A stretch of DNA of 64,000 nucleotides from Mya arenaria (taxonomy: Eukaryota > Mollusca > Bivalvia > Myida > Myidae): positions 12,221,937 to 12,285,936 of the forward strand of contig NC_069133.1 in the NCBI RefSeq assembly GCF_026914265.1, written 5' to 3'. The notes beneath the pieces were generated by a model that was not told the DNA's origin, did not search any database, and worked only from the letters and a program-made list of their open reading frames with translations. Both the position numbers and the translations under genes were made by a program. Of the stretch, positions 25,301 through 63,984 are shown one piece after another (the stretch's first letter is position 1; each line of letters opens with the position of its first letter).

Positions 25301-27856
25301 GTTATGCAGCACAATTATTACTGCTCTTCTAAATATCTTCTCATTCATCATATCCCAGGATGCGATGGAGAGTTTCAATGACTGGGTCCAGCACTACCAC
25401 CACGGGAAGCCCACCAAACCGCCTGCACCTGCAGGGGGCTCGTTCACAGACAAGGTCGCGCACGAACACCGCCTCAAACAGTACGAGCAGGAGCATGATC
25501 GCTGGAGACACAACCTTCTAATGCAGACACAGGTAAAAAAAGGGACAGGCTTAAGTGTTGCCAATATATCTAAATGGCTTTAAACAGAGCCTTTAACATT
25601 TAATGCTCTTGTTGTAAAATTCAGAAAGGTTTAGCACTATTTAAAAGGACTCATAGATTGGCAAAAAGCAATATTTGAAATGAGTTCCTGGCCCGAATGC
25701 ATATATTACAAATCGTCTGTAGTAGTAAAAGACCATACAGGAAATGGTTATAATCGTAAAAAGCTTGTCTTTGGTAATGATGCGATTTGGTAAAAAAATA
25801 GAACATGCATTCGCATGACACAATTTTGTCACATGACAATACTCAAGGTACATGTGCTAAATTTTAAACTGGTTCCCAGTCATTGCTGATTAAGTTTGCT
25901 GGAATATTGTGTGTTTTTTTGGTTAATAGTTGATTATATTATTCAAGGGTTCTTAAAGTCAGTATGATTTATGAATTCAGGATTAAGATTATTGAACTTC
26001 AGACTACCTTTCACTTGTAAAGATTGTTTTTTACTGGGACATTTGCATCAAAAAACAGGAATGACTTTAAAATGAAAATAAACTTACTCTTGAAACAATT
26101 TCAGAAGGGGTCTAAGCCCCTTTAACAGCTTTAGGCATAAATCCCTCATACTAGAACAGTGCCACAACTTACCATTATCAACTCTTAGGACCACTGATAA
26201 TTGAATATTAAGTTTTATATTAATTTGATAGATAGTGCATTTTGGTACCAATCTATGAGAGTCTATTTTAATTGTGATAAAAAAGGGCTCTGTAGGTTTA
26301 CATATAATGAGTTTATATATTCATTTTATCAGAGAGTTTGTCATGCGTAAGGTGTTGGAAAGAGCTTCTGTTTTTCAAGCACAATGTAGACACTTATCGT
26401 TACCTGACTGATCTTCTGACTTGTTTTAGAGTACGAAGGAACACATATACAATGTGTTGTTGTTTGCTGATGGTGGCTGGATGGTGGACCAACCCCAGGT
26501 ATGTTAGTTTTCTACAGTGTTTATGGCATAGAAATAATGTTTTTGGATGGGATACACGTATCTTGGCTTTTTGTAGGTCCTTGTTTCTGCGGCTTGTTCA
26601 TGTAAGGTTTCATTATCATATCAATAATGGTATACTTGTACATTTAGATAATATCCATAACAACCTCTTTGTGCCCGCATAAGGATGATTTTTATTTTGA
26701 TAAAAAGCAAAGTGGTAATAAAAAGTAAATTTGTGTGTGTATCATTTAAAACAATCATTTATCTTCGAAAAACCAAAAAAATAAAATTTGTACATATTGT
26801 CTGTTGTTTACATTTTGCATCCCAAATGTCAGCTGCATCATGTAGTAATTTGACCTCCATACAACCCGTTTTTGACCATGACCTTTACAACTATACTTCA
26901 CAACAAAAGTTTGTGCATACATATGGGCTTTTAGAGAACATGGCAAATAAAATTGCCTATTGGCCTCCAATAACTACCATACATAATTGTGAAGAATTGC
27001 ACCTTCAAAACTTACAAGACATGACATCATAATTTAGTTCATGCAGTAAACCAAATTATGGTTTAAGTCAGAACATAAATACTTGTGTCAACTCTTAATC
27101 ACTGAAAAAAAGTTGCAAGTTGCAAACTGTTTAAAAAAAAGTATTCCAAGTAATTTACAAATTCTTAGAATGTAAAATATATGTAGAAATTAAGTAATTT
27201 AATATAAGAATTCCCCCCCCCCCCAAATAAATAAATAAAAAAATAATAAAGATATTAATGTAATAATTACATAACAATATTCAGGAGAAAGATGAGGAGG
27301 ACATGTCAGATGACCAGGCCATAGATACAGCCATAGATCCCCAGCGTGTGGAGCAGATGCAGCGCCTTCGGGGCCTCGTGTTGCCCGGCCTTACCGTCCT
27401 GCTCCACTCCGTGCTACACTCAAGTGAACAGTTTGAGGAATGTGTTCGCCTTGCTGACATATTAGCCTCTGAACAACACACTCTGTATAAGGTAACTTTT
27501 TTAATCAGGGAAATGAATGTGTATGCCTTGCGGACATCTTAGCCTCTGAACAACACGCACTTTATAAGGTGACTTTTTCGATCAAGGAAATGAATATGTA
27601 AGCTTTATGGACATCTTAGCCATTGAACAACACGCCCTGTATAAGGTAACTTTTTTCCTCACGGCAATAAATGTGTTATTTCCCTAATCTAGTAACCTCC
27701 TCTACAATATATTTTTTGTATTTCATCATTTGCATATTCTGTTTTTTGCAGGTGTTCCAGAAAGCGGAGTTACAGCGTCTGTTACAGCTGATCCGGGACT
27801 CATCCCTCCAGCTGCTGGACCAAGGTCGAGGGCCACTGGGATATGAACAAAGCTGA
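7298..27856 (+). CDS. NUP107: Nucleoporin Nup107, complete gene model, 25 coding exons, 957 aa
   Basis: Scaffold subunit of the Nup107-160 (Y) complex of the nuclear pore; binds Nup133. Exons: 7298-7300, 7590-7636, 8478-8593, 9382-9462, 9871-9971, 10626-10691, 11464-11527, 12102-12258, 13506-13728, 14272-14363, 15195-15273, 15712-15825, 18193-18369, 18899-19104, 20103-20215, 20702-20814, 21693-21828, 22860-23026, 23408-23510, 23974-24062, 24550-24621, 25359-25532, 26430-26498, 27285-27491, 27752-27856. All are GT-AG and phases close exactly (2874 nt). Residues 1-159 are polar and probably disordered; 160-957 form the Nup84/Nup107 alpha-solenoid. Diagnostic motifs: [23 protein letters not shown] (~342), [13 protein letters not shown] (~389), [18 protein letters not shown] block in exon 19, [10 protein letters not shown] (exon 22), C-terminus [11 protein letters not shown]. 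Vertebrate proteins are near 925 aa. The one-codon first exon is the least certain part. Confidence 0.93.
7637..8477 (+). other. NUP107 intron 2, nothing recognised
   Basis: AT-rich intron (gtaaat…tcttcag). No repeat or ORF with support on either strand. Confidence 0.5.
8640..8760 (-). mobile_element. tRNA-derived SINE-like fragment, antisense in NUP107 intron 3
   Basis: Read on the minus strand it has an A-box-like 'tagcctagtggtcaagtg' and, about 30 bases later, a B-box-like 'ggttcaatttcc', the spacing of a pol III tRNA promoter. No intact tRNA cloverleaf is apparent. The rest of intron 3 (to 9381) contains a small inverted word pair around 9200-9300 (ccctgctatgtaaaa / gcattttaccagtgtaggg) and little else. 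Confidence 0.55.
9705..9840. repeat. Dispersed repeat, copy 1 (NUP107 intron 4)
   Basis: Shares 'attccattcagc…ttggtcagct…aggcca' and 'agattctagtcttaaa…tccaatctaag'-type words with 14525-14665 in intron 10. The two copies are about 130 bases and clearly homologous but diverged. Confidence 0.6.
10360..10510 (+). mobile_element. tRNA-derived SINE-like fragment (NUP107 intron 5)
   Basis: 'ttggttgtccagttagagca' (A-box-like) is followed by 'ccaggttcaattctcagc' (B-box-like GGTTCAATTCT). Then comes 'ggtggtcaccaagccggaca', a tail word that also occurs in reverse complement at 31339-31352. The combination looks like one invertebrate SINE family with a conserved central segment. Confidence 0.6.
10692..11463 (+). 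other. NUP107 intron 6, nothing recognised
   Basis: AT-rich intron (gtaggt…ctcag). No supported repeat, ORF or RNA gene seen. Introns 9, 11, 13, 15, 17 and 18 (13729-14271, 15274-15711, 18370-18898, 20216-20701, 21829-22859, 23027-23407) are similarly featureless. Confidence 0.45.
11905..12080. repeat. Short dispersed repeat piece (NUP107 intron 7)
   Basis: 'attatggacaccagtacagg' 'tttctctact' recurs as 'aatgtggacaccagtacttg' 'tttctactct' at 39757-39784, downstream of a tRNA-like B box there. This is therefore probably the tail of a SINE. Confidence 0.4.
12667..13176. mobile_element. MITE with CAGGCTTTCAAG inverted ends and 6-bp target duplication (NUP107 intron 8)
   Basis: The left end caggctttcaagcg and right end …cacttgaaagcctg are inverse complements over 12 bases. 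The word tatggt sits directly outside both ends (12661-12666 and 13177-13182). The interior (510 bp) is non-coding and has sub-terminal inverted/direct words 'ccctactttttc' and 'cctacttttt' clustered at both ends. There is no transposase. Confidence 0.8.
14510..14670. repeat. Dispersed repeat, copy 2 (NUP107 intron 10)
   Basis: Second copy of the repeat at 9705-9840: 'attccattcagcttgttggt' 'cagctaaacatacaggcca', then 'tttctaatcttaaatttaag' 'tccaatctaag'. Bracketed by 'ggccagtattcaatactga' and 'attgaatattgccca'. Confidence 0.6.
15875..16965. mobile_element. Inverted-end element filled with ~148-bp tandem repeats (NUP107 intron 12)
   Basis: The ends are inverted: 'tatacgcctgaag' at 15875 against 'cttcgggcgtata' ending at 16965. 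Between them about six units of roughly 148 bp begin 'gttagcaattccgtgtccgg' (near 15943, 16092, 16250, 16391, 16540, 16693, 16837). Each contains 'ttttcaaataacttaatac'-type and 'aaggatgtgtcgcgcgcaat' words. Two unit types alternate (an 'accatgggggtgc' type and a 'catgcttt' type), so the array grew by duplication of higher-order multimers. Three units contain poly-G runs of 7-10. No ORF. Confidence 0.7.
17271..18092. mobile_element. MITE with CAGGGTTCGAA inverted ends and 5-bp target duplication (NUP107 intron 12)
   Basis: The ends are 'cagggttcgaatttaac' and '…aaattcgaaccctg'. The pentamer attac lies outside each end (17266-17270 and 18093-18097). Sub-terminal words 'actcgcaaa…ttttgcgagtg' recur several times in both orientations near both ends (17300-17340 and 17995-18075), giving strong foldback potential. 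822 bp, no transposase. The CAGGG termini recall hAT-type transposons, but those usually make 8-bp duplications, so I leave the class open. Confidence 0.8.
19536..19940. mobile_element. MITE with CAGGGCTTCCATTAA inverted ends and 6-bp target duplication (NUP107 intron 14)
   Basis: 'cagggcttccattaa' at the left and 'ttaatggaagccctg' at the right are exact inverse complements over 15 bases. attgaa flanks both sides (19530-19535 and 19941-19946). The interior repeats 'ggaagtt'/'aacttcc' words near each end. 405 bp, non-coding. Confidence 0.85.
20845..21515. repeat. Dispersed element carrying a 21-bp minisatellite expansion (NUP107 intron 16)
   Basis: The flank 'aagggtgctgcaccctgtcc' 'tttttcagtagcacc' and the end 'ttggctaaaaccctatg' match the element in intron 21 (24767-25144). 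Here the internal 'gcagcaccctgtcccttttc' motif (21-bp unit) is amplified to roughly 17 near-identical copies between 21140 and 21490. Because 21 is a multiple of 3, both strands stay open over the array (LQHPVPF in plus, AAEKGQG in minus), which creates spurious ORFs. Confidence 0.8.
24767..25144. mobile_element. Unexpanded sister copy of the 20845-21515 element (NUP107 intron 21)
   Basis: The ends are 'ctaggggttttgct' and 'gactaaaaccctag' (inverted), flanked by taca on both sides. The interior shares 'ggtgctgcaccctgtccttt' 'ttcagtagcac' and 'catccttctgccttcat' with intron 16, but it has only one or two 'caccctgtcccttttc' units. Confidence 0.7.
25533..26429 (+). other. NUP107 intron 22; its right half is duplicated at 38250-38412
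   Basis: No gene or element recognised. The last ~200 bases ('gcattttggtacca…gagagtc…gttggaaagagc') reappear, diverged, immediately before the NUP107 pseudogene, which defines the left limit of that duplication. Confidence 0.6.
27437..27668 (+). repeat. NUP107: Tandem triplication of the NUP107 exon 24 tail with its splice donor
   Basis: A ~77-bp unit starts at 27438 (inside exon 24), 27515 and 27592. Each unit holds a version of the coding words for '[13 protein letters not shown]' followed by a donor: gtaact (27492), gtgact, gtaact. Units 2 and 3 still read without stops in the exon frame (…[14 protein letters not shown], …[13 protein letters not shown]). They lie in intron 24, and the 77-bp spacing is not a multiple of 3, so use of a downstream donor would change the frame. 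Confidence 0.85.
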
Positions 27857-31457: not shown

Positions 31458-32448
31458 TCAATGGAGATGGTCATAGCAGTCGTCGGATTTGTTGGCCTCG
31501 GTATTTTTATGGAAATCTACAGTGTTATACTCTTCTCTCCCTCGTCCAAGAGTATTATAAGTGTCATCATGAAGTATTTTTACGTGGGCATTGGTTTCTC
31601 CCTTCAAGTCAACAATGTTATAGTCTTCTGTCTCATGATGGAGTGTATTGTAAGTCTCATCTGAATGCAATGCTGTGTTTGGAACGTTGTCTCGGTGCAA
31701 GTTGACGGTATTGTAGTCTTCTTTATTGGTTGACAGTGTATTATAAACGTCATCATTTGCCTCATTTATAGTCACTTGTGATGTTTTATTCCCACCAAAG
31801 TTGGCAACAGAGTAATCATCACGCCTTTCAATGGTATTGTACTCGCTGCCAGGATGCAAGTGTAGGTTACTTATACTTGTTGTATTGTACTCATCAGTAT
31901 CTTCGTGAAGATAATCATAATCATTTTGTTGAACCAGTTTTGTAGAGTCCTTGAAACAAGCGATGCCATATTCGTTTGTTGTTAGTCCTTGAGTGGTACG
32001 TTGCGAATCACATGCAGTACGAGCCCGTATCTTTTTCTTACCGTCTGTCGCCATGGAATCATTCCCTTTGCCTTTACGGATGTGTTTCTTGAATCGACTA
32101 TACACTCTATTTGCTTGCTCGGACTCCTGCTGACGCCGGTGTTTGTCATCTTGGTTAGCCGAAGCTGTTCCGTTATTTTCTGTTTGAATGTCGTTTTCAA
32201 TAGCACCATTTTGACCATGTTTATGTTGACTGCTGTTGTCTGGAAATGCCGTATTTGTTTTCGCATTGATATGATGTTCTGACCCATTTCCATGAAATTG
32301 GCTATTGTCTTCTCCATTATCATAATGCGCATTATCATTGGTAGACAATGCAGGTAAAGAAATCGATATGTCTCCATTTGTGACCCCGTATGCTGCATTA
32401 TTATGCGCTTGCGTATCTTTTGTAGGTGGTCGACAGATCATACCTCTC
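31458..32448 (-). other. Single-exon cytoplasmic tail of receptor A: 31-residue ITAM-like tandem repeats
   Basis: In the last exon the Tyr-to-Tyr distances are exactly 10, 21, 10, 21, 10 residues, i.e. a 31-residue (93-nt) period. Every module has an acidic residue before the first Tyr (DDVY, DETY, DDTY) and EDY/EEY before the second. The first half of the tail is polar and Asn/Asp/His-rich with a basic patch (FKKHIRKGKG). The 3' end reads CYDHLH-stop. Confidence 0.8.
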
Positions 32449-35400
32449 CTTAAATACGAAAATAATTGTTGTGGATACGATACACATAACAATGTTGATG
32501 ACTGATTGCTCCTAAGCACACCATACATTCACCGTATGGAGATCCAGATTCGGTTTGCTTTACTACAAGGGCAGGGGCTACATCGTCTAAGCCCCCATAA
32601 AACCACCGTGTAGGTGGTATTTTATATGACGTGGTTTAAACGTTGCGTTATTGTAAATGATCCCGAATGAGAATATAAAAATACATTGTGGACGAATGTT
32701 GACCATTTGTGAAGACTCGTGAAATTAAGCTATAAATTTGGGTATACTTTTATTATCTCCGTGTAATACCTTCGCATGAATATCAGGCCAATGATAACAA
32801 CAGCTAAAGCGACAGAGACACCCACACCGACAGCCACGCCTATCACCATTTTCGAATCTGAAATATAAAATGCAAAACCAAGAATGTGGACTTATTCTTA
32901 TTTAGCGTGAATTGTTACATTGTATTTGAAGTTTATATTCTTTATTACTTCAATGCACATTTAAAAGAAAGGTAACAATGTTTACAAGGGACACGATTTC
33001 TCATTTATTTGAATTCGACTGTAAACACTTTATTTGACAAGAACCGCGCTCAAGTCCGTTTTTTGAAATTATAAATTAGTATTCGTGTCCATTTTGGAAA
33101 GACATTTGTAAGTGGGGCTTGGCCCTATAGCTACCACTTTTACATACACTCTGTTTAAAGGCATAAGGCTTATGTCTAACAAACACTGAACGAGAGACAC
33201 AACAAGTGCAAAAAATCAACTCACTATCAACCGTTGGTACGTTTATAAAATATTACCAGATTGTTTTGCCTTAGACTGACTGTTGTCTTGCCGAGTAACA
33301 TTCTCCGTTTTCGTAAAGTTGCAAACTAAAATAGAAAAAGCAATCGTCATGCTTTTTCTGAATCCCACTATGGATATACTCAAGTACTAAGAGCAATGTT
33401 TTCTGAATACCACTACGGATATACTCAAGTACTAAGAGCAATGTTTTCTGAATCCCACTACGGATATACTCAAGTACTAAGAGCAATGTTTTCTGAATCC
33501 CACTACGGATATACTCAAGTACTAAGAGCAATGTTTTCTGAATCCCACTATGGATATACTCAAGTACTAAGAGCAATATTTTCTGAATCCCACTATGGAT
33601 ATACTCAAGTACTAAGAGCAATGTTTTCTGAATCCCACTATGGATATACTCAAGTACTAAGAGCAATATTTTATGAATCCCACTATGGATATACTCAAGT
33701 ACTAAGAGCAATGTTTTCTGAATCCCACTACGGATATACTCAAGTACTAAGAGCAATGTTTTCTGAATCCCACTACGGATATACTCAAGTACTAAGAGCA
33801 ATATTTTCTGAATCCCACTACGGATATACTCAAGTACTAAGAGCAATGTTTTCTGAATTCCACTATGGATATACTCGAGTACTAAGAGCAATGTTTTCTG
33901 AATCCCACTATGGATATACTCAAGTACTAAGAGCAATGTTTTCTGAATCCCACTATGGATTTACTCAAGTACTAAGAGCAATGTTTTCTGAATCCCACTA
34001 TGGATATACTCAAGTACTAAGAGCAATATTTTATGAATCCCACTATGGATATACTCAAGTACTAAGAGCAATGTTTTCTGAATCCCACTATGGATTTACT
34101 CAAGTACTAAGAGCAATGTTTTCTGAATCCCACTACGGATATACTCAAGTACTAAGAGCAATGTTTTCTGAATCCCACTACGGATATACTCAAGTACTAA
34201 GAGCAATGTTTTCTGAATCCCACTATGGATATACTCGAGTACTAAGAGCAATGTTTTCTGAATCCCACTATGGATATACTCAAGTACTAAGAGCAATGTT
34301 TTCTGAATCCCACTATGGATATACTCAAGTACTAAGAGCAATGTTTTCTGAATCCCACTATGGATATACTCAAGTACTAAGAGCAATGTTTTGCTTTTAT
34401 CAAATTATTTCCAGTGTTAAATGGTTTTATAATTTATACCCAGGTTAATAAAGTCACCAATTATTACCTGACATATGATGCGATGAATGGTCTGTAAAAT
34501 TGCCTAGAAAGTAAATTAACTTATTAAATAGGACCTAGTCGTAATACAAATGAACACAAAAAGAGCATACAATTATTATTTATTATTTCTATAATTTCAT
34601 GGAAAAATAAAGCTTTTTCTCGTCAATAAGGAAGTTTTCTGTTAATTTCGACTTTGTTTATGATTTCCAGTGGTTTATAGATATCTATCAAGGAAATTAA
34701 AATGCTATTTCACAGTTTTAAACTGTAAACAAATCAATTACGTATTTTAACTGTTAAGAATATGTACTCCGTCCTGCTATACAAATCAAATACCAGTGCG
34801 CAAAGGACTAGGACACAATATCAATAACGTCATTTCCATAATGACGTTACGCACGTAAACAGATAAGCGCGCTGTACTTGTAAACACAGTTACTTTTAAT
34901 ACATCTTTCAGGCATGCAGTAAAAGGAAAAAAACAAATATCTTTGTTTCAGTTAAAAACGCAATTAAATCTACCCAGTGAACACCATAAGAGACTATTTT
35001 ACTCGTGGTTGCATCGTTCGTGAAATATATTACGATCTTATACTGAAACAAACAATTATCCTCTATATCATTTCGTAAATGCAGTAAATTTCTTACCAAA
35101 ACTACACAGTGAAGACATATTTTGATAACAACTCGTAGTTCGTGTAAACTTCCCGTCTGTGTTTATGAATCCACAGTTGTAAATTTGGGTTCCTTCACCT
35201 GGCAGGTCTGACTTTGCTTGAAATACAGGTAATAAATCATCAGATTGCATTGCCCCTTTCGATGTATTCTATGTGTTAAAGGGGACTCCTTCATAGGTCT
35301 TATGCCGGCAGCGATATTTTTCAAACTGGGTCATTTTACTTACTTCTAAGAAATAAAAGTCCAAACAGCAACTCGCAGATATATATTTGTAAATTCGCCC

Positions 35401-37181
35401 TTAAAATTATTCAACAGCGTTTCTCCCTTCGTCAAAATAGGGCATTTTATGTTAAATTTGAATATATATTAAAATTGAGCTTTTGACGATGTTTTATCAT
35501 TGAAACAACCATTTTGTCCTCATTTAACGCGAATTTAAGTTTGTTGATCTTTGACCTTTTAAAAGATGAACAAGTTCCTTTATACTTAGGACCACTCAGC
35601 ATCCAAGAATACATTGTTATCTTGTTTTATGACAAAATATAGTCCGTGTCAATATAAAACTATTTTGCATACATAAATGAAAGAATTTACTACAAAAACA
35701 CAGCAAACTATACATAATAAATTAAAAGAAAAAACAAACATTATTGTACAAGTTTGCATTTAATTTACTTTGGACTTGCTGCTGAGTAGTTTGTAAAGTC
35801 GCTCCTGTCCAATATGTGCCGTCTTGGGTACCGGCTGTGTATCTTTGACCAGAGCAAGTCACAGCTTTTTCCCATGTTCCATTACGAATACACCCGGGTC
35901 CAACATTGCCACCAGAATGACCTTTGTCTAGTTTCGTTTAAAATTGGATATGTATGGTTATGTACAACAATAGAAACACACTTACGTTGTACACGTTATA
36001 TAAATTGTGCTCATAACTACCTGACGCTATTGTATGTATCAAGTTGATCCTTACATTAATATGGGAACCACGAGACTTAAAAATAACTGCCTTATTAACT
36101 AATCAAATACTCAGTGTGTACCTGAAGAACAGCATCTGTACAGGAAATGGCTATCACAGTTCCAAAAAAACTCCTCGCTAAGAGTCTGAGTAGACGAATT
36201 GTAGGTACGGACACCACATAGTTCAGCGGTCCGATCTGTTAATATATGAAACAATGTTGGTTGGATATCAAATACAATTCATTCAATTTCTTGAAAGGAC
36301 TTTGTAAATTTAAAAATCTGTTTGTTCTGGGTTGTTTTGTTCTTTAGTTAAATGTATTTTAAGTGCTACATGTACTTGTAATATTTTCTTGTTGATCGAA
36401 AATTGTTTTCTGACTTCCGGGCTTGCTATTATTTATTTGAAACTAAAATGTATGTTTATTGATTAAGGAGAGCGTTAAATATACAATCAAAGATCGACAG
36501 CAGAATTCAAAGTTTGTCTCGTCGAGAAATTGTCTTCCAATTAACAATTTCTTGATATTTCTCACCTCAAATAACGGAAACCATTATGCTAGGGTCAGAG
36601 CTATCTCAGTCAAGAGTGTTCGAGTATCTATATTCTTAGTGACAGTTTCTCTTAGGTTTCCAAGTTCTACCAACCAACTCCTCCAACGGAAAGCCATGCC
36701 TAATCCGACGGGGGTTGTGAGGGGTAACATTTATAATTATACCTTACTTGTATAAAGTTTAGTTCCAACAGTATAGTCAGACGTCCAGACGCGTTGTCGA
36801 CTTGACAGAAGCACATTGTAAGAGCTGTATACATCTTCACTGACCGGCGTGCCGCCTGCGTGTAGGCATGTGTTCATTGATACTCTCCAAGAAAGCTGAT
36901 CACAGTTAGAGTATATGACACTGGCTGAAAGGAGTTACATGAGTGTGAGTTAGGCAAGCGCCTACTTGTTACACAGTCTTCATAACATTCATAAACTCAT
37001 ATTCTTCCTTTTCCTGCTATCGTAATAATTATCGTTCAGTATAATAACGTAGTATTGACAACATATTAAATACAATATAGTAACGTGGCTTACCTTTTGA
37101 TAGGCTTACGCAATTGATAACGGCACAAATAATACATATCTTAAAACAATACTCCGAATATATATATTTAGGCATTTTCAT
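31458..37181 (-). CDS. Receptor A: C-type-lectin-like membrane receptor with three ITAM-like tail modules, 599 aa
   Basis: Eight exons, all GT-AG and phase-closed (1800 nt): 37094-37181, 36748-36924, 36122-36235, 35769-35921, 35097-35216, 33257-33325, 32770-32857, 31458-32448. Residues 1-29 are a signal peptide (MKMPKYIYSEYCFKICIICA…). Residues 30-217 are two short lectin-like modules; module 1 has SWRVSMNTC…GGTPVS…WTSD…NCDSHFLYRCC, module 2 has GTWEKAVTC…YWTGA…YNCGF…CSF. A ~23-residue stalk follows, then an uncharged helix at about 245-268 (MVIGVAVGVGVSVALAVVII…) stopped by RRRG. The 330-residue tail holds tyrosines at 505/515, 536/546 and 567/577 forming YNTL-x6-YNTV, YNTL-x6-YNIV and YNTL-x6-YNTV; further Y at 447, 449, 457, 473, 482, 595. 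Family assignment as C-type-lectin-like is by pattern, not by search. Signalling through SH2 kinases is inferred. Confidence 0.82.
33345..34390. repeat. 45-bp minisatellite, ~23 units, in intron 5 of receptor A
   Basis: The unit contains 'ttttctgaatcccacta[t/c]g' 'gatatactcaagtactaaga' and repeats about 23 times with a handful of point variants (tat/tac, gtt/att, caa/cga). 45 is divisible by 3, and both strands are open: plus reads FSESHYGYTQVLRAM…, minus reads LLVLEYIHSGIQKT…. It lies between exons 6 (33257-33325) and 5 (35097-35216) and does not continue the exon 6 frame, so I class it as a satellite. Confidence 0.9.
34391..35096. other. Rest of receptor A intron 5, nothing recognised
   Basis: AT-rich sequence with no supported ORF or repeat. 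Introns 4 (35217-35768), 3, 2 (36236-36747) and 1 (36925-37093) of the same gene also show no extra feature. Confidence 0.45.
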
Positions 37182-38532: not shown

Positions 38533-39129
38533 CATTTGTATGAGATCACATGTTAAATGGCTCATTGTAGGCCTTGTGGTACATGTAAAGTTATTGCTCT
38601 AATTGCTAATGAAATATTTGTAGATTTAAATAATACAGGCATTTAGTTATAACCTATATATCTGGCCAAAAAATCGCCTCTCGGCTTCCAATAAGAACCA
38701 CGCTTAATCGTTGCAGTTTAACAACTGAACAGACATGTCATTATAAGTTGGTTACCTGCCTGCAGGAAACCAAACTATAATTAAAGTTTGTTAGAACATT
38801 AATTATTGTATCAAATCTTACAGAGTAAGAAATACCAATAATTGCGAACCATATGAAAAAAAAATTAATATTCCTCAAAGCTGCATTTAAGTGTATTTAT
38901 ATATTAAGTAATTTGGTATATAGATTTAAAAACGAAATAAAAAAGATATATTTAGTAATAATGACATTTCACAATATTAAGAAGAAGGGGGATGAAGACA
39001 TGTCTGATGACTAAGCCATAGACCAAGCCACAGACTCCCAGCGTGTGGAGCAGATGCGGTGCCTTAGAGGTATCATGTTGTCTGGCCTTACCGTCCTGCT
39101 CCACTCCATGCTTTACTCAGGTAAACAGT

Positions 39130-39610
39130 AACATGAGTACGTACGCCTCGCTGACATTGAAGACTCCGAACAATATGCCCTGTATAGGGCAACTTTTTCA
39201 CAAAGAGCAAGAATGGTGAACTCATTGCTGACATTGTGACCTACTAACACTATGCCCTGTATAAGGCAACTATTTTACAAACCTCAAGAAATGTGTACGC
39301 ATGTAAGCTGACTTTGTAGCTTCCGATTGACTTGCCCTGTATAAGGCAACTTTTTTACAAAGGGTTAGGAATGTGAGCGCCTCGCTGACATTGTAGCTCG
39401 TAGCCTCCGAATAAAACGTATAAGCAAATTAATTTTACACCGAGCTAGGAATATGTTCGCCTCCGTAAAATTGTAGCTTGTGAACCATACTCCCTACATA
39501 AGGTTATAATTTCATTTGGAATGAGTAAGCCTCTCTTAAATTGTAGCTTTGGAACCATATATAAAATTATTATTTCACCCAGGGCTAGGAACGTTTACGC
39601 CATGAAGCCA
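39130..39610 (+). repeat. Expanded array of exon-24-tail units in the NUP107 pseudogene
   Basis: Six to seven degenerate ~75-80-bp units with 'gcctcgctgacattg…ccctgtataaggcaactttt' 'ttacaaa' follow the pseudo-exon 24. These are the same unit as the three at 27437-27668 in the live gene, so the exon-tail duplication predates the segmental duplication and then grew further here. Confidence 0.8.
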
Positions 39611-39689
39611 TTACGATCACATATACGTTCAGTACTAGAAATATTATCATGCAGGCACTGTAGCCTCGGAGTACTTATTAGCCCCTAGA

Positions 39690-39790
39690 TATCCACTTTT
39701 CATCACAAGTGCTTGTGGATTCGATCCCCGCTATGGTAACCTTTTATGGATTCCAATGTGGACACCAGTACTTGTTTCTACTCTAGATCA
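39690..39790 (+). mobile_element. tRNA-like SINE fragment
   Basis: 'gcttgtggattcgatccccg' is a good pol III B box (GGATTCGATCCCC). It is followed by 'tggacaccagtacttgtttc', also found at 12009-12030. Confidence 0.5.
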
Positions 39791-39794
39791 GATA

Positions 39795-40375
39795 AGATAA
39801 ATAAATTTATTTTGATTAAAGCGTATACAGCTTATCATCATATACACATATCGGTTATTCATAAATACACAAATAATGAAAAATAACTCAAGTTATAGCA
39901 CTAATTATCTTCCTTATGCTTAACTGTCACAAACTTCACTAGAGGAGGAAATGTATTACAAAATATATACTACTGTACAATATTGATAATAGTGTCTCTT
40001 TGTTTAGAGGCTTTAATAATATACAATGCTAGTTTATGCAACTGGTGTTTATTTCTGACATTTAGAAGTTTAATAAATTTAAACATGCTAGGCCTATTTA
40101 TATAATAAGAAGAAATATATTCCCTCCTTAGGTCACTATATACATTGCATACAATCATAAAATGATATTCATCCTCTACCTAATTTAAATTACAAAGTTC
40201 ACATTTTCTATTTTGCCTCGCTACACCTGAATATCTACCTATCTCAATGTTTAAATTATGAGAGGATAATCTTATTTTCGAGATAGCTTGCGTGTGTTTA
40301 AAGTTATCTAATATGATCAAATAATCACTCATTTCAATACTCGACCTCAGTTCACGAAATAGTGTTAAGCCAGTT
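39795..40375 (-). mobile_element. Non-LTR retrotransposon 3' end (C-terminal ORF2 fragment), degenerate
   Basis: On the minus strand: 'KIRLSSHNLNIEIGRYSG', then 'RKCELCNLN', a stop codon, 'VEDEYHFMIVCNVYSDLRRE' and 'YINRPSMFKFIKLLN'. The C-x2-C…H-x-C arrangement after the reverse transcriptase is typical of the C-terminus of several animal non-LTR element ORF2 proteins. Only this tip is present, inserted in the pseudogene's intron 24. Confidence 0.7.
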
Positions 40376-47086: not shown

Positions 47087-50000
47087 TTAGGCTAATTCAT
47101 AGCCACATTTTTGTGCTCTATTCCCGCCAAAGTAGGCAACACTGTCAGCATTACTGTCTTCAAGGGTGTTGTTGTAGTCGCCAGGATGTAAGTGAACGTT
47201 TACATAATCATTTCTTTGAACCAGTTTGGTTGAGTCCTTGAAGCAAACGTTTTCATATCCTGTTGTTGTTGTTTCTTGCGCTATACTCTGGTTATCACGT
47301 GCACTACAATATTGTTTCTTTTGTTTACCATGTGGTGGGTTTGAATCATTTTCTCTGGTTTTAGAGTTGTGATTGTTGACTCGATTTACAAAGGTATTTG
47401 TATTTGCATAGATATGATACCCAGACCCATTGTCATTAAATTGGCAGTTGTCGTCTCCGTCATCCTGATGCACATTGTCTTCGGTATACAATGCAGGTGT
47501 AGAAAATAATACGTCTCCATTTGCAAACCAATATGCTGCATTTGCATGCGCTTCCGTTTCTTTTATTGGTGATCGACAGATCATTCCTCTCCTTAAATAC
47601 GAAACAGATTTATTTTGGACACTATACAGATGCATTGTTGGTAATCACTCCTGAAACCACTATACATACAAAGTATGAAATAACCAGTTTTGGTTTCATT
47701 GAAACTGTTTATTGACTACAATGGCAGGAGCAATACTGTATAACCCAGCAAAACAGGAGTTATGTGGTATTCCAATTGATGTGGTATCAACATTGAACAA
47801 TTGTGAATGATCCCAGATAATCAGAATATAATAAAACAATGTGAGCGAATATGGATCAATAGCGATCTAAATGTTGGTTATACTTTTATTATGTCGATGA
47901 AACTACCTGCGCATAAATATCAGGCCAATGACAACAATGGCTAACACGACAGGAAAACCAACACCGCCAGCCACACCTATCACCATTTTCGAGTCTGCGA
48001 TAAAGAAAGGGAATTATGAATTCATATTTAGAGTGGAATTCTAAATGCAGTCCATGTTTTGTATGACTGCAATGAACATGCGAGAAAAGAACTACATCAC
48101 CTATATAAACGATATTTACAAGAAACACTGCGACTTCCCGTTCTACTTCAATTTGACTGTGAAGACGTCATTTGACAAGAACCACGCTTAAGTCTCTTTC
48201 TTGAATTTTGAGAGTAGTATTCGTGTCCGTTTTGAAATGACATTTCGAGGCAGGCCTAGATTCTCAAATGTGGACACCGATACATTTGGTATGTTTAAAC
48301 AAATATTATAGTATATCGTAGCCTCAAACTGACTGTGTTGACGGCTAACATCTGTAGTCTAATTGCGTTAACCATTTTTGCATCAAGGTTTTGTCGTATT
48401 GTTGAGATCTTTTGTGATTTGCTGATTTGTCTGGTACAACAGCTGATATTTTTTTTAAAACTGAATCCTTCCCTTGGTTTGATGTTGAACATCGATTGTT
48501 TAATGTGACTTATGTACCTTCAAAAAAGTTTCTTGTTGCAGAACTTTGCTGTGTTGTCCTTTGTGATGTTTTTGATGCTATTATTGTTGGTGAAGTGGAT
48601 GGTACTGTCATGTATGAACTCTGCGTCTTTGTCGAAGTTTTTCCAAACGCTGATATGGGAGAGCCACAAACTAATTTGTAAATAACATAATATGATATAA
48701 ATATGAATTATCGAACGGTATACAACTAAAATCATCATGCATTTAAAGACAACGAAACTGTACGAAAAGTTTACAAACATGTTAAAGTAATTGGACTGTG
48801 TATAGCGAACTTTGTTTTGAAATGTAAAGGTTCCCTTTCTATGTATATTTACCTCGCATATGAGAAATATTCTCTTCATATCTATCTGAAAAATGAAAAC
48901 AACATGAAAAGCCGGATGCAAGTTAGTGTGATGCTAAATTCAACGAATTAACAAAGACAAGCCCAACAGTTTAAACCTTAACCTACACTATGTTTTAATG
49001 CATCATGGTCAACCAAACAAACACTAATAGAGAGACATACAACATCACATGACAGCAAAAACATTACACAAATATCGGTAAATCGTTATCAAATAACCTT
49101 GAGATAACCGTGGCATGGTCAGTAAAAAAAGCACTAAACAACACACTTGTACCACTTTAATCATTAAAGAATTAAACCAAAACAAAGAGGAAACATAACT
49201 AGTTCATTGATGAAATGTCTGCCGCATGGGAGCATGGTAGACATATACTGGACTAATTAAATATTCATCAAAACAATGATTAGGTGGTATGTTTGCAAAT
49301 AATTCCTGTTCATCACTTTAAAGTTAAAACTTAAATACACAACACATAAAGATGCTTACCAAAGCTGCAATATGAAGGCAGAGTCCTGTTGCAATAATCT
49401 GTATAATGAAATACACCCTCTATTCCAATGGTGCCACACTGGTAAATGTCGGGTACTGTGTACAACCATTCGTGCATCCCTTCAACAATAGATCGTACAA
49501 TTATGGAAAAGATATGAACATTTCGTTTTAATGAGCTTATACATGTATTTTTTATGAAGCACTGCCAGAGTTAACATAAAACAGGAATGAGTTCATAAGT
49601 AAATATTATGATTACTATATTTTACACTATATTTATTCTATATGTTTACCTGGTGTCTCGTGTAGAGTTAGCTCAACTGCCGTTTTTGTCCAATATCGAC
49701 CGTTAAATATGCCCGACCCAAAAACTGGCTCCGAAAAGGTGTGATTGCAAGAAAACAAAGCCTTTTCCCATGTCCCAGCTTGTATACATTCGTGTAATGG
49801 CGTCCTCCCTAGTTTTATACAGTTTTACTTTTAATTTTTTCATGCAAAAAGTAAAAGAAAACAATTCTGAATACTGATTGACAAACAATTATTCAAATTC
49901 ACAAAGAATGTGTACGACTAAGAAAAATGCCCCTGTACACTCGTACTGAATTGTCATACAACTAAAGTCACGATTAACAACAATCAATGATGCCTACTCA

Positions 50001-52697
50001 ATGGCCATCACATAGTATTTTTGATTTATGGAGTGTTTTTGGAGTAACGGATACACTAAAATAAAACCACAGCAAATTGTAGCTTCACCACGGCAGTTTT
50101 GAGCAGAACTGTCGTGGCTCTTTCCAATTCAGGTGGATAACCTACGACTCAACACGATTCACGCAGTGAATTCACGATTTAACAAGAATCACATCAATTT
50201 TCAAAATTGTATCAAATCCGACGAAGCCGAAATCACAACAGCAAAATCCAAAATATACTGGAATGAGATTATTGTTATTAATGTGTGTATGACTGTATGT
50301 GATAGAAAATTTAAAACATTACTTCGCGGTTTATATGTTCAGTCTCATGACATTATCAATGCTCAAGACATATGTTGAACATAGAGATAATAAGCCTGAT
50401 AAGATATTATAGAAAATTAAGTTCAATGTATTTGTTTTTTGTTTTTTTTTAAATTATATTTGCTTCTTTTTATTTTATAATGAAATATATGAAAAAACCT
50501 TTACAAGGGCTTATAATTATAATACCTTCTGGACAACAAATGTATTTGAACTCGAACGAACAATTTGCAAACTTTTCCTTGCAGAAACCATTGGGCCAGT
50601 GAAAGACTTTGTACCCACACAGATGACCGGTGACATTGAGCGCAGCACCTGAAAGCAGTTTTGACTTTTAAGATTAAGCATTCCAAATTCTCATTAGGAG
50701 CAAGAAACTTTAGACACGTTTTTCAAATATCTTCTGTTTTAATATATTTATAAAAAGAGTCAAGACCAAAAATATACCTACAACTTTAATGTCATGAGAT
50801 AATTATTATTAATACAGATATTTTGAAGTTTGTTAAGTATGATTTTATTATTTTGTGACGTTGTGTGTATTTCTCTGTAATAAGCGTCGATTAAGCATCA
50901 GCCACGTGCCTCTTTACATGGTCTTTGTTAAATTTCAAATTTAAGAGCTTGCTCCCGCAGTTCCCATTACAAATGTAGATCAAATCAAATTGTTTCAATG
51001 ATAAGCGTCAGCTTCCAATTTCAAATCATACATACTAGGCACGAATAACACTGTCATAAAAAAGCACACAGTCATTTTATTTTCGATTCTACTATTTGAG
51101 ATATATAAAGCAATCGCTACGCCTCCGGCACGTTCAGTTTAAAGACAAAAGTCAATGTTTATCAATTTGATTAGGGTTTTGTTTTGATTCCTTACTAACT
51201 TAGATAACTCATTATCATAAAGGCTTCAAAAATGTAGATTTCTTTGCCATATTTTGATTTTTGGGTTTCGATAACTTCAAACCTACCATCATGACATCAG
51301 TTTGATATGGCATTATGAGAGAACACCAGAGCAACAGATAAAGGAAATCATAAAATAGTCTGCAACAGGATTTAACAGGATTCGAATTTGTGTGATTTCA
51401 GACAGACGGGATGCAATCATTTTTTATTCATCTCAAGTATTAACCCCTGAACCTTTATATTGAATAATTTTTAACATAAAATTTTAGTTCTACAGATATA
51501 TCAAACTAGCACTATAAGGATACGAAGGGTCATGTATACCGTTTCATGAATTACCTGATGTAAGAACCGTCTTTGTGATAAAGTCAGATGTCCAGTAGGT
51601 TTGATTTTGCATTTGAACTTTTGAAGACTCGTGGATGTTCTTTCCCACTGGTGTTCCTCCTGAGTTTATGCATGATGTCATTGCATCTTTCCATGTAAGC
51701 TTCTCATCGTTGCAGTATAGGACGCTGGCTGATGATAAAAAACTCACAATTTAAAGAGCTTAGATATTAAGGTATTAGAATGTATGTTAACTTTCTGGGT
51801 ACATAATTTTACAATTGATTATAACTTTTAGGTAAAGTATTTAGTTTCAGTCATAACTTATCAGTTAATAGTCCTCGACCTTTTCAAGCAGGTGTCATAT
51901 ATTTTGTCCGGTTTTAAAGTCATTGAACATTTTATTCCGCATAATCTGCACAGTAAACAGGCAAACATGTTCCATAGATTTATACCCGAGAAACGGTTCG
52001 GCCCTGCCCTTTGGTGTCTTATTTCCCCCAAAAAATATGTAAGAACTCCTTCTGAGCATTCTTCTATCCGCAAGTCGCAGTGCTACAATACGTATTGTGC
52101 ATACTTGACTTATTAAGTTTCAACGCAGTGGTAATTATACAGATGTAAAAAAGAACTCATGTCTGGTCTAAACACCTAAACCCAGAAGATCATATACCGT
52201 TGTCACCATTTCTGGCAATTGTTCTCAGGTAAACACATGTACATGCAATTATTTTATGTTTAATAAAGTTTTCTGTCATATGTGATAGCATTTTAACCCG
52301 ACGTACACAATTAATATTGTTCTTAGTAGTATCTTAATGTTATAAACCTGTTTACAATTTCAATGATTCTAAGTTTTGGGTAAAAACCTGTGTGTGTTTT
52401 CTGATAGCAAAACAGATTATTAGCTTTGGTCAATATTCTTCAGGCTGAAGTATGCTACGATTTTAGTTTCATATCACATTCAATATACAACACAAATTAT
52501 GATGCATCTATTGCTAATACCATCTGATTTGTTTTGTTATAGGTTACTTATTCTTTCAATAAATGAATAGTTAAAAAATACAAAATGCACAACCTAAATC
52601 GATAATTTATTTTATAATTCTTACCTGCGGAGAATGCTACCAGGTACATGTGAAAAACAACACAAACACTAAAACAGAGATCCTCATACATATTCAT
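47087..52697 (-). pseudogene. Receptor B: same 8-exon layout, disabled; could only encode a soluble ectodomain
   Basis: Exons: 52625-52697 (signal peptide MNMYEDLCFSVCVVFHMYLV…), 51555-51728, 50526-50648, 49650-49808, 49360-49479, 48310-48670 (stalk), 47907-47994 (membrane helix), 47087-47591 (tail). Lectin-like modules are intact: LTWKDAMTSCINSGGTPVG…YWTSDF…NCSFEFKYICCPEG and GTWEKALFSC…YWTKT…YQCGTI…YCSF. Three lesions: TAA at 48510-48512 in the stalk where C has a Ser codon, the stalk donor changed from gt to at (about 48308-48309), and a 2-base net loss in the tail giving a stop at 47087 before the ITAM-like array. Translation from the ATG would stop after 269 residues, before the membrane helix. 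The ruined array remains at 46840-47087. Confidence 0.8.
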
Positions 52698-54240: not shown

Positions 54241-54246
54241 AACTAC

Positions 54247-58438: not shown

Positions 58439-61400
58439 TCAATGGAAATGGTCATAGCAGTCTTCTGATTTCTTGGCCTCAGTATTGCGAAAGTAATCAA
58501 CAGTGTTATACTCCTCCGTCCCTCGTCCAAGAGTATTATACGTGTCGTCATGATGTATCATTAATTTGGGATTTGTTTCTCCGTTAAGGACCACAACGTT
58601 ATAGTCATCCGTATTGTTCCTAAATGTATTGTAAGTGTCATCGGAACGCAATGCCGCGTGGGGAGCAGTGTCTCGGTGCAAGTTGACTGTATTGTAGTCT
58701 TCTTCCTGGTTAGAAAGCGTGTTATATGTACCATTATTTTCAAAAGTTGAAACAGCGTTTGGTGCGTTGTTCCCGCGAAGGTCGGCAACATTGTAAACTC
58801 CATTCTCTCCAAATGTACTGTACTCGCTGTCATGAGGTAACTGTATGTTTCCTAAGCACGCTGTATTGTACTCGTCAGTACCTTCGCGAAGATGATCATG
58901 ATCATTTCTCTGCACCAATTTTGTAGAGTCCTTAAAACAAGTGTTGTCAGATTCTTGTATTGTTGTTTTTTCAGCTGGGCGTTTGGTATCACGTGTAGTG
59001 TGAAATGGCTTCTTTTCATTACTATATGGTGCTCTTAAATGCTGACCTTTGATTTTAGGGGTTTGAATGTTAATATGACTATACACGTTATCCGTTCGCC
59101 CGGACTCGTTATCACGATGCTGATGCTCATTGTCATTGGAAGACAATGCATGTGAAGAAAATGATACGTCATCATTTGTGACCATGTATGCTGCATTTGC
59201 ATGCGCGTCCGTCTCTTTTATACGTGGTGGACAGATCATTCCTCTCCTTAAATGAATGGATTGTTATGGGTACAATATACAACATAGCTCCATTACACAC
59301 CATTTATGTGTTATTCTAAGTGATGCGGTATGCGCATCGAATTATTGTAATTGGTTCTGAAGGCTCAGTACATAAAAGTACAATATAAGCAAATATTAAG
59401 CGTTTGAAAAGACTCGTGCAAATAAGTTCTAAATTTTGAGAATACTTTTGTATGTGCGTGACATACCTGCGGAAGAATATCAAGCCAATGAGAAAAATGG
59501 CTAAAACGACAGGAACACCGACAGCCACGCCTATCACCATTTTCGAATCTGAAATAAAGACATCATAATAGAATGGGAATACTTATTTAAAGTAAATTTT
59601 AAATTGTACTTGCAGTCCATGCTTTGTACGACTTAAATGACAATATTAACGATTTAGGCAAGGAACACGTCGAGTTCCTGTCTTTGTTGAGTTCGACAGT
59701 GAACAAGCGATATAACAAGAACCATGTCGATTCCGTCTCTTGAAATTAGAAAGTAGTACACATGTCCATTTTGAAATGACACTGGAAAAATAGGCTCAAA
59801 TTTGAGACGCGGACACCTTTACAAGTTTATCAACTCAACCGTTGGTTTATGTTATTTCATAAAATATTACCGTTTATCTTAGCCTCATACTGACGGTCTG
59901 GCCTGATAACATCGGTGGTTTGTACCGAGAGGTGACCATAGGAATTCGGTATCTTTGTATCAAGGTTCTGTTTTTTTGTTGACGTCTTTTTCGACGCAAG
60001 AGGGGATTGTTCTATTGTCACTGATGTTCCGTCGAAAATAGTTCTTGTCGCGGTGCTTTGCGAGGTTGTTCTTTGTGGCGTTTCAGCTGATAATATATTT
60101 GGTGATGTGGATGATGTTGTCATGTATGGAGTCTGCATGTTTGTTGGAGTCTTTTCAGACGAAGATATAGGAGAACTACAAACTTTATATATAAAAATAG
60201 CATGAGTATATTAAAATCTTCCAATACTTTACTTTACAATTAAAATTACCATGCGATTTAAGAAGGTCAACTATTTCTCATTTGTACAGTTATTGTTCTG
60301 TACATTACTATTTTCATTAAAAATGTAAGTATTACGTTTCTAACAATAAATTTACCTCTCATATAAGGAATTATCTTTTCATAGTCATCTGGAATATTAA
60401 AACAACATATCTTTTAACTCATTCAGGTCAACAGTTACAAGAAAGGTAGAATGATGTTGATTTAGTGGAAAAAACAATGTCAATTACAGGGAAAAGCTCC
60501 GGTAACCTTCTCAACCAAGATCCAGTTCAATGTACAAGGGTCAATGTCAGACAGAAACAAAAAGAGAGAGATAAAACGTCACTAGACAACAACAACAAAA
60601 AAAGAACACATTTAATATTGGTAAATGTTTCGGCGACTGCCTTGGCGGGGTTAATGAAAACGTGCGCTCAATCTCACTCTTGAATCACATCATCAATAAA
60701 TAAAGACACACGACACACGACACACACATGCACACACGCACACACGCACTCACGCACTCACGCACGCACGCACGCACACACACACGCACACACACACACA
60801 CACACACAAAGAACTTCCAGTGTTTGATGCATATTGGGTCTACCGCATCCAAACGTGGTGGTTTTGTATGCATTGGTCCTTGTCTGCATTGAACAAAGCA
60901 AACAAGCAGTTTATAAAACTTCTACATGAATCTGAGGTAAACTAGTCATATAATTCATTTTTATCTTTTAAAGTACTATATGATTATATATTCAGTACTT
61001 TAAAGATGCAATACAACTTTTACAATAAATATTGAATCAGAGGTATGCTAGTTCATCACTTTGAAGTTCTATATAATTATACATTTAGTACAGTTTTAAA
61101 CGTTCACCAGCTGCATGCTTACCAAAGCCACAATAGGAAGGCCGCAACCGGCTGCAATTTTCTGTGTAGTAAAAAGTCCCACCTTTATTGATGGTACCAC
61201 ACTGGTAAATGTTTTGGTCGAAGTAATTCCAGTTTTGCATCGCTATTAGCAGAAGAAATGGCTTTCATCAAACGAGTGAAATAATGTGCCAAGATCTCGT
61301 TAATTTGGGGATATTCTCAATTTTGATTTGGTAACAGGGACATGAATGGTTAAATCTAGATGTTTGAAATCAGTAAAAAAGATCTGCTGATCGTATTTCA

Positions 61401-63984
61401 TTACAGGATGTGACATGATTGTTTTCCTTTCTTTTTGTTTATTTCATTGTGATCCACGATCCTTTTGAATAATAGTTTAATGCTCAACGGTATGTGATTC
61501 CATATAAGTATTATTTTGAATAATCATAATAAACATAGTCAGCTGAATATTGACATTTTGAGCATTTATTTTGATTAAAGCATCAACTGTATTGAAACAT
61601 TATTCAAAATATAATATTTTATACCGTTTTTAAAAATTAAGGTTTTAAAGGTGAGCTGATAAGGTAGTGTATCACGCCTCCATTATAAATGTCGCGACCC
61701 CATTGGTATATTTTTCCATATTGGGTCACTAATCTTTATATCGTACCAAAATGGCGTTTTGTTACTAATTCCGAGGAATAACTGAAACATTCCCAACGAG
61801 TGTTGGCGTCTTGATTAATGTGAAAAGGTTGTCGACGTGATACACACATTACGATTTCCTGAATCCCATATATCTCATATTTGGTCACCTACTAACACAG
61901 AAACTTATAATGTTGCTTACACCTACTTACAATGTTTTTAAACATTTAAATATTTAGGCTTTCTTAGAAAAAACTAAATTGCAGTCATTCTTACAGACAG
62001 GCATGTTACGTATTTGAACCTACGTTTGGTTATGATTATAAAATGAACTATAATTATTATCAGTGTGTATTTTTACCTGTTATTTTATGAAAAATTATTG
62101 CCGTTCTTGTCCAAAATTTTCCGTTGAATATGCCCGGTGAGAAAACTGAGTCCGAGTAGGATTGATTGCAAGTTGTAGTCTTTTCCCATGTACCATTCTG
62201 TATACAATCAGGGCGTGACGACCAACCTAGCGTCATAAGATACACATATTTGTATTAGAATGGTATTATATTTTTCAAGTAAAAGAAAAGAAATAATACC
62301 TGAGTATCAATTTACATTTAAGTTAACATTATTAAATGTCGAATCGCATAAGATTAAAATATTATGCTTTCACAACTAAATTAGTTGACCGTTTAGGACT
62401 GTTTGCAAGCAATATCAAAAACATAACAGGTCTCTGTGCATATCTTTTATAAAATTCTTAAATAAACAAGATAAACACTTCTTAGTGACTACTTTTATAA
62501 AAAGTTCATATTAAATTTTGGTATTTTATGTGATAGACATGGAAAATGCACGACCAAGAAAATAATATTAGTCCTTATAATATTCAAACGTAAATATAAA
62601 TATAAACAATGATTAGGTCATTTATCTTTGTTATAGATATTTCCACATATATAGTCCTTAAACATTAAGGCTGCAGTAATGTTCAATACTTTATAATAAA
62701 TATGTTCTTTTTTTATTATTTTGAACCATTTAAAAGAATTAACATATGCAATTAAATTAGCAATTCAGAAACGTTTTTCGCACACCCCAGATAAGTACAT
62801 CCAAATATTTGACTATGCTGGAAATCCTTAACTTGCCCACGGGTAAAAATAAAAAAGTATCCGTATGGAACTACTTTTTATTGACATCACGCAATTATCT
62901 CCCTTGTCGACGACAGTCGTTTGTAGCACCATGGAATCCCTATTTTATGGTAATATTCAAAATCCAAATAAATAATTTCTCGCTTCAAGTGGCACAAAAA
63001 AAATCGCTGCATTTTATAAAAAATGCTGCACTGTCCTCTGAAATATTTAAAGAGCGATTTGACTACTTACATATTTTGAATCACTGCGCGTATATAAATG
63101 ACAACCACTAATTAACACATATCTATACGCAAATTATTTTCAATACACAAAAATGTGTTCCAGCGAAAAAATATATTTTAACTTTATTTTGTTTAACTGA
63201 GGTGGGAGAAAAAGCATCTTCCATGGTCGCTAAGATAAGGTTCATCCGAACCCTCGCGCAGGTGTCCTGCGGACACTTGGTAATCCTCGTTTCAGCAAAA
63301 TACCCGACGCTCGGGTTGGGATGAACCTATCTTACACGAGTGGCCATGGAAGATACTTATAATCGTACTCCGGTGTTTAATCTCATTCCACGTTATTTGA
63401 TATTAGGGACATTAAAAAAGTAAAGAGAATCAAGTGATAACATTTTGGGTTCTGAATATATTTAGAAAAACTGTTGATTGATCCGAATTGTTAAACATTG
63501 ACAGACTTTTGTATATCCGTTTATGTTAACCATACAAATGAATTGCACGTGCAGAACATACCTGCTATAAATCCTAAAATACTGGAATTATTTTCTTTGA
63601 TAATAACAGTATATAATCGAAATATGAATTTGACCGCGTAGAAATTTAAAGTAATTACCTCAAGTAATAATTATAAGCCATATTATGTTTGATAACTTCC
63701 TAAATAACCCTCAAATTAGTTAAATTGAGATGGTCAGCCATATCAGATAAAGAATATGATGGAAAGAGAAGTTCAGGTCATAATTCTCATTGTGTGAAGT
63801 TTGTATAATCCTAATATTATGAAAAAAATGTTAAAAAATAAACAATCTGGTAATTTCTTACCTTCAGGACAACAAATGTATTTGTAATTAAACGAACAGT
63901 TTGCAAACATTTCTTTGCTCAAACCACCGTTCAAGGGATATTCTTTATACCCACACAAATCAGCAAAGACATTGTTGGCTGCAC
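58439..63984 (-). CDS. Receptor C: lectin-like receptor with long Ser/Thr stalk and three ITAM-like tail modules, 5' partial
   Basis: Six exons are visible, equivalent to exons 3-8 of A: 63862-63984, 62077-62226, 61123-61242, 59871-60182, 59467-59548, 58439-59246 (1595 nt, phases agree throughout). Signal peptide and first half of module 1 lie beyond 64000. Module 1 end: DLCGYKEYP…NCSFNYKYICCPEG; module 2: DCIQNGTWEKTTTC…KFWTRTA…YQCGTINKGG…YCGFG. The stalk is ~104 residues (23 in A), rich in Thr/Ser with TTSQSTATRT-like blocks, suiting O-glycosylation. Membrane helix MVIGVAVGVPVVLAIFLIGL…FFRR. Tail modules: YNTL-SNQEED-YNTV, YNTF-RNNTDD-YNVV, YNTL-GRGTEE-YNTV, period 31 residues; C-terminus CYDHFH. 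No lesion seen in the visible part. Function inferred as in A. Confidence 0.8.
60706..60808. repeat. (CA)n/(CGCA)n microsatellite in receptor C
   Basis: Imperfect cacaca/cgcacg tract in the intron between stalk exon and module 2 exon. It creates a spurious Cys/Val ORF on the minus strand. Confidence 0.9.
61243..62076. other. Receptor C intron, nothing recognised
   Basis: AT-rich; no repeat or ORF with support. Likewise 60183-60700 and 62227-63210. Confidence 0.4.
63214..63356. mobile_element. Foldback MITE, ~143 bp, in receptor C intron
   Basis: Left arm 'gcatcttccatggtcgctaa' 'gataaggttcatccgaaccc' and right arm (reverse complement) 'gtatcttccatggccactcg' 'tgtaagataggttcatccca' 'accc' pair along about 48 bases, leaving a ~45-base loop containing 'ggtgtcctgcggacact', itself a small hairpin. 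It has no coding capacity, and its GC content is higher than its surroundings. Confidence 0.75.

Follow-up and report, generated by a model that had tools for sequence, protein, structure and literature searches.

Can a single receptor chain of a bivalve carry its own repeated array of activating tyrosine motifs? The question is raised by a 64,000-nucleotide stretch of the Mya arenaria genome (RefSeq assembly GCF_026914265.1, contig NC_069133.1, positions 12,221,937 to 12,285,936; here called the window), in which the last exon of a minus-strand gene, hereafter gene A, encodes a cytoplasmic tail with three 14-residue modules resembling the immunoreceptor tyrosine-based activation motif (ITAM). 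A motif search of the tail placed them as follows.

31704..31745, minus strand, ITAM-like module 1, YNTLSTNKEDYNTV
31611..31652, minus strand, ITAM-like module 2, YNTLHHETEDYNIV
31518..31559, minus strand, ITAM-like module 3, YNTLGRGREEYNTV

Successive tyrosines of the array are spaced 10/21/10/21/10, and both modules and spacings are as the initial annotation of this exon had claimed. Its further observation of acidic residues ahead of each Tyr was borne out as well, with an acid at -1 or -2 of all six array Tyr. We assign a probability of about 0.55 to the reading, drawn from sequence, that gene A encodes a self-contained activating receptor, of the Src/Syk type, with its motifs repeated as in CD3-zeta.

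The array recurs in one of two tandem paralogues of gene A that the window also holds, paralogue C, which the initial annotation of this exon did not mention:

58439..63984, minus strand, paralogue C, with exons 3-9 inside the window and earlier exons past its edge
59246-58439, minus strand, paralogue C tail, with array modules at 58726-58685, 58633-58592 and 58540-58499

Paralogue C retains all six array Tyr as well as the last Tyr of the tail, and five of the six array Tyr have an acid at -1 or -2. The Tyr-Tyr distance is 10 in every array pair (3/3 in A, 3/3 in C), within the 10-12 of the ITAM consensus, quoted in PMC12058738 as YxxL/I-x6-8-YxxL/I. The pairs of A satisfy this spacing and the first motif, and fail at the second, which ends in Val. 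When Val is allowed, the pattern fits 3/3 pairs in A and 2/3 in C, the exception having Phe at the end of its first motif. The residue at +3 keeps one order in all six pairs of A and C, Leu or Phe in the first motif and Val in the second, an order that would suit a bidentate reader with two unlike pockets.

Chance expectations were obtained from 20,000 composition-preserving shuffles of the tail. Three Y..[LIV]-x6-Y..[LIV] pairs, as in A, arose in 0/20,000 shuffles (maximum 2), and the two such pairs of C were likewise never reached (0/20,000, maximum 1). No shuffle in 20,000 gave a hydrophobic +3 residue at 10 of the 16 A-tail Tyr, and the observed number of acidic neighbours was reached in 0/20,000 shuffles for A and 117 for C. 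The modules are an old internal duplication and therefore do not count as three independent events; the real evidence lies in their upkeep. Identity is highest between A and C modules of the same number (0.65, 0.55 and 0.81, with all other pairs at 0.32-0.45), and because every module thus has its positional partner in the other paralogue as nearest relative, the triplication predates the A/C gene duplication.

To express this upkeep we computed the ratio of nonsynonymous to synonymous change (omega) from Nei-Gojobori counts, pairwise between A and C. The whole tail gave an omega of 0.68 (268 codons). Its N part, with 102 codons, stood at 0.98 (0.84 if cut ten codons later), and the region from CFKD to the end at 0.53 (166 codons, bootstrap 0.34-0.86). 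Within the latter, omega was 0.27 in the motif blocks (48 codons, bootstrap 0.11-0.61), 0.48 in the linkers between blocks (32 codons) and 0.37 from the array to the stop. The difference between the blocks (0.27) and all other tail codons (0.83) had a permutation p of 0.008 of 2000, a value that is only nominal, since the finding itself set the limits of the blocks and about seven partitions were examined. Amino-acid identity followed the same lines, with 35/48 positions identical in the blocks versus 63/134 in the N part plus linkers (Fisher p 0.002), at a synonymous divergence (dS) between A and C of 0.49 in the module region to 0.67 in the blocks. Over the whole tail, 12/15 aligned Tyr are kept versus 131/253 other residues (p 0.03). 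Two further lines of evidence were considered and set aside. Identity of Tyr codons (12/12 shared Tyr) is no different from that of other conserved two-fold residues (55/64, p 0.34), and the lack of indels in the module region as a sign of constrained spacing has a chance probability of about 0.25, since gaps in the A/C alignment form just 2 runs and both fall in the N part. The module identities and the omega values together show that the array is older than the A/C duplication and is constrained between the paralogues.

Other tyrosine motifs, likewise absent from the initial annotation of this exon, flank the array:

31878..31919, minus strand, looser upstream pair YDYL-x6-YNTT, both Tyr of YDY being His in paralogue C
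31803..31841, minus strand, looser upstream pair YNTI-x5-YSVA, both Tyr retained in C, with Phe at the first +3 there
31464..31475, minus strand, C-terminal YDHL, present as YDHF in C and in a remnant in a third gene, paralogue B

Since both Tyr of the YDY in the first loose pair are His in C, the module count was not raised to five.

Is the array part of a receptor? The tail exon (31458-32448, minus strand) has exactly the limits given in the initial annotation and is the last of the nine exons of Mya arenaria LOC128210255, which together run:

37094..37181, minus strand, exon 1, start codon and signal-peptide-like hydrophobic leader by hydropathy; GT donor, phase 1; identical to P0002
36748..36924, minus strand, exon 2, first half of ectodomain unit 1; AG/GT sites, phase 1; also matched by exon 2 of paralogue B
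36122..36235, minus strand, exon 3, second half of ectodomain unit 1, Cys-rich
35769..35927, minus strand, exon 4, first half of ectodomain unit 2
35097..35216, minus strand, exon 5, second half of ectodomain unit 2; acceptor according to P0002
34468..34503, minus strand, exon 6, short linker exon, located via P0002; AG/GT sites present
33257..33325, minus strand, exon 7, stalk, 69 nt
32770..32857, minus strand, exon 8, transmembrane helix without charged residue, then an Arg cluster
31458..32448, minus strand, exon 9, cytoplasmic tail and TGA stop; acceptor tttaag|GAGAGG; 991 nt

The spliced model (37181 down to 31458) is identical in every letter to the database protein P0002 (LOC128210255, 613 aa). 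Its introns have GT/AG borders, in phase 1 after exons 1-7 and phase 2 for the last. A comparative model that placed the exon 5 acceptor at 35255 and lacked exon 6 was replaced to agree with P0002. The tail matches two Mya arenaria database proteins at 100 percent, the second being MAR_015062 (P0001, 538 aa), which lacks exons 5-7 and retains the transmembrane helix and tail. Both join ectodomain, helix and tail, the connection on which the initial annotation had made its reading depend; they do so as database models. RefSeq models are taken here to be partly RNA-based. Exon 6 has counterparts of 33 nt in B and C, and the stalk of exon 7 measures 69 nt in A versus 153 in B and 312 in C, the B and C versions being Ser/Thr-rich. 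The intron between exons 6 and 7 holds a 45-bp minisatellite (33354-34392; 23 copies, 96 percent matches) with long frames open through the repeat on both strands, yet intronic in the gene A model.

The membrane helix, VIGVAVGVGVSVALAVVIIGLIFM, has no charged residue, as had been claimed for it, and the exon 8 helix is uncharged in A, B and C, as expected of an adaptor-free receptor. The predicted product of gene A is thus a single-pass type I receptor with signal peptide, two-unit Cys-rich ectodomain, stalk, neutral transmembrane helix and a tail of ~329 residues, and the proposal of a single, self-contained chain bearing an ITAM-like array is supported.

The initial annotation had also called the receptor lectin-like, and this part was not confirmed. 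The A ectodomain has twelve Cys and seven N-glycosylation sequons, and its Cys at 49/95/115/123 and 151/194/209/217, with the last two 8 apart in each set, may resemble the four-Cys order of a C-type lectin-like domain (CTLD). This order and a WTG/WTS strand look lectin-like by eye, and lectin identity remains a guess. Pfam searches with two whole models and five single units returned no CTLD match; Mid2 scored below its cut-off over the transmembrane region (E 0.0046) and Spond_N reached E 0.15. Ectodomain profiles run against the Protein Data Bank (PDB) gave nothing better than E 0.49 and no CTLD among the matches, from profiles of only three sequences that a distant CTLD could escape. Over all five PDB sequence searches, the best match of each (E 2, 0.44, 0.49, 0.62 and 0.037) was taken for chance. 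AlphaFold on P0002 and P0001 produced an unusable fold model, with a mean predicted local distance difference test score of 29.4, 15/613 residues at 50-70 and none higher. Ectodomain units 1 and 2 do not match each other (hhalign probability 0.43 percent). A search of Rfam gave 0 matches.

How might such a receptor work? Once ligand had clustered the receptors, the Tyr pairs with their acidic neighbours would become substrates of a Src-family kinase. A module phosphorylated on both Tyr, which lie 10 apart (pYNTL-x6-pYN[T/I]V), would then hold one Syk-type tandem-SH2 kinase, so that a single chain could load up to three kinases and give a graded or amplified activating signal, with an output such as phagocytosis or cytokine induction in haemocytes. 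A neutral membrane helix, acid-flanked Tyr pairs at distance 10 and a fixed L/F-then-V order are what a Src-then-Syk relay would use; phosphorylation, Syk recruitment, the activating sign and the haemocyte role are what we infer.

Several observations weigh against this proposal. Strict ITAM matches number 0 in A, C and B, with Val at +3 of the second motif, so that of the ITAM-like reading in the initial annotation it is the spacing and the paired Tyr that stand, and not the strict consensus. In C, the first motif of module 2 has Phe at +3 and module 1 lacks an acid before its first Tyr. Schistosome SmTK4, a Syk, is described in PMC2820527 as lacking conserved SH2 sequence for ITAM binding, and by analogy an invertebrate Syk need not bind ITAMs. 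The selection evidence comes from two paralogues, with blocks picked after the finding. The initial annotation had looked to purifying selection on the tyrosines among orthologues; what was found is constraint on the blocks between paralogues, and conservation of Tyr taken alone is weak (10/12 in the module region versus 89/154 other residues, one-sided p 0.07). No homologous tail outside Mya arenaria came up in protein searches whose reach was limited (to 3349 candidates at E 0.01; to 7996 at E 1, where only candidates sharing most words were scored; and to 2324 at E 1), and the same two Mya models were found each time. The term mollusc-specific, used initially, is accordingly better replaced by the statement that these limited searches showed the tail in Mya arenaria alone.

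A final point against Syk-type signalling is that the array Tyr can also be read as YxxPhi sorting signals (Phi = L, I, M, F or V). The tail may be that of an endocytic or scavenger receptor whose YxxPhi motifs are read by AP-2, the repeats speeding internalisation and no tandem-SH2 signalling being involved. YxxPhi occurs at 10/16 tail Tyr in A and 9/14 in C, including 6/6 array Tyr in each, and AP-2 tolerates V, F and L at +3. Because the array motifs are themselves YxxPhi, this is the strongest rival; we consider it unlikely. YxxPhi does not include the acid that precedes the array Tyr at -1 or -2, and for sorting one copy can be enough, with no need for pairing at distance 10 or for a constant L/F-then-V order. 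Syk-type signalling and AP-2 sorting could also hold together.

It is quite unlikely, in our estimate, that the tail, instead of being a Syk-type activator, is a scaffold with many phosphotyrosine sites at which single-SH2 proteins dock, or that its action is inhibitory or dual (inhibitory ITAM-like). The 16 Tyr of the A tail would suit such a role, and one upstream site (SEYNTI) fits the pattern of the immunoreceptor tyrosine-based inhibitory motif (ITIM), but this site is lost in C (SEYSTF). Readings of the tail as immunoreceptor tyrosine-based switch motif, NPxY, YxxP, YxxM or YxxQ were rejected for want of any match in A or C, and the single Grb2-like Y.N site in each lies outside the array. 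We hold it very unlikely that the array is an internal repeat in decay, with little function, in a lineage-specific gene that evolves fast. Loss of the array in B behind a stop, the confinement of matches to Mya in the protein searches and drift of the tail N part at omega 0.98 would all fit decay; the omega of 0.27 in the blocks and retention of 6/6 array Tyr between A and C at the dS given above do not.

What do the paralogues say of the family's history? The third copy is broken within its tail:

47087..52697, minus strand, paralogue B, open from start codon through the transmembrane helix; tail stops before the array

Behind the premature stop of B lie decayed module remnants, down to 46841, with further stops in every frame, and B may be a decoy-like receptor or a young pseudogene. 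Protein database searches with gene A did not list B or C proteins among the matches; both genes may be unannotated or annotated otherwise there. Over ectodomain exons 3-5, dS is 1.45 for A/B, 1.71 for A/C and 0.62 for B/C, the values of A to B and C being near saturation. The corresponding divergence falls to 0.43-0.44 in the tail N part and 0.35-0.50 in intron 8. From ~33,110 to 31,400, A resembles B and C in DNA sequence almost without a break; upstream of ~33,110 the similarity search found an exon 2 patch (A/B, 36928-36772), a short off-register match (33204-33122) and a remnant at 38,049. High ectodomain dS, low tail and intron 8 divergence and tail-limited DNA similarity thus show that A has a tail close to those of B and C but a head further removed from theirs, a mismatch that may stem from recombination, conversion or faster evolution of the head. 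An arms-race reading of the ectodomain was rejected, since pairwise omega over exons 3-5 is 0.40-0.52 in A/B, A/C and B/C (B/C bootstrap 0.31-0.89), with no sign of diversifying selection at the pairwise level; the heads, also in B, seem to have been under constraint during the history they share and not to be diversifying. We also entertain, tentatively and with some doubt, a paired-receptor system in which a clam zeta-like multi-ITAM tail arose independently of vertebrates and was built into a ligand-binding receptor, tails being shared or homogenised while ectodomains diverge and the array-less B serves as a silent or decoy member.

Further pieces of the family and other genes were observed in the window:

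38049-37766, minus strand, remnant of a fourth copy, with a tail C-terminus (DCYDHIH) and flanking DNA like the 3' ends of B and C
54245-54397, plus strand, inverted copy like gene A exon 4, with an in-frame stop
22601-27542, plus strand, exons of a Nup107-like gene (PF04121 at 22601-23038 and 27267-27542)
~38950-40700, plus strand, partial repeats of the last Nup107-like exons, seen by eye, between genes A and B
22601-27542 and ~38950-40700, 77-bp tandem repeats at both Nup107-like places
56847-57353, minus strand, reverse transcriptase fragment (RVT_1, E 6.7e-11)

Is such a receptor new? CD3-zeta of the T-cell receptor lacks a ligand-binding ectodomain and works in a complex, and its motifs end in Leu or Ile. 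It has three ITAMs per chain (as described in PMC12058738), a number matched by the ITAM-like modules of gene A; a sequence relation between the two was neither found nor is claimed. Bivalve precedents are the oyster C-type lectins CgCLec-TM1 and CgCLec-HTM, which are reported to bind Syk via a hemITAM or nonclassical ITAM and to signal through ERK to IL-17 (PMC13027682). These too are bivalve single-chain transmembrane receptors with Tyr motifs; by their descriptions each combines a carbohydrate-recognition domain with a single hemITAM or nonclassical ITAM, whereas gene A has three paired modules and no recognisable domain. The oyster immunoglobulin (Ig) receptor CgIgIT2 is, like gene A, a self-contained mollusc receptor with an ITAM-type tail, and unlike it has five Ig domains and a classic ITAM; it is credited with B-cell receptor (BCR)-like signalling (Sun et al. 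2020, as cited in PMC11999971) and a link to ERK (PMC11999971), although a title in the reference list of that review names it an inhibitory receptor, which makes its sign ambiguous there. Candidate allorecognition proteins of Hydractinia, in which ITAM and ITIM motifs are identified, are likewise invertebrate surface proteins with ITAM-type motifs, likened here by description and not by sequence, and Botryllus fester and uncle fester are noted in the same source as having no known signalling domain (PMC12065747).

Among the matches listed, mainly open-access literature, no paper on a multi-ITAM mollusc receptor was found. Because hemITAM or ITAM tails have been described in oysters, on C-type lectin and Ig receptors, an activating bivalve receptor of this sort is not new in itself; what is new is the regular three-module array within one chain, which the initial annotation had thought unusual and which varies a receptor kind already known. 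A T-cell signalling review states that there is no clear consensus on the role of ITAM multiplicity (PMC12058738). If our reading is true, bivalve Syk-type signalling extends past hemITAM lectins, and a three-module single-chain receptor would offer a natural way to test the benefit of multiplicity in an animal that has no T cells.
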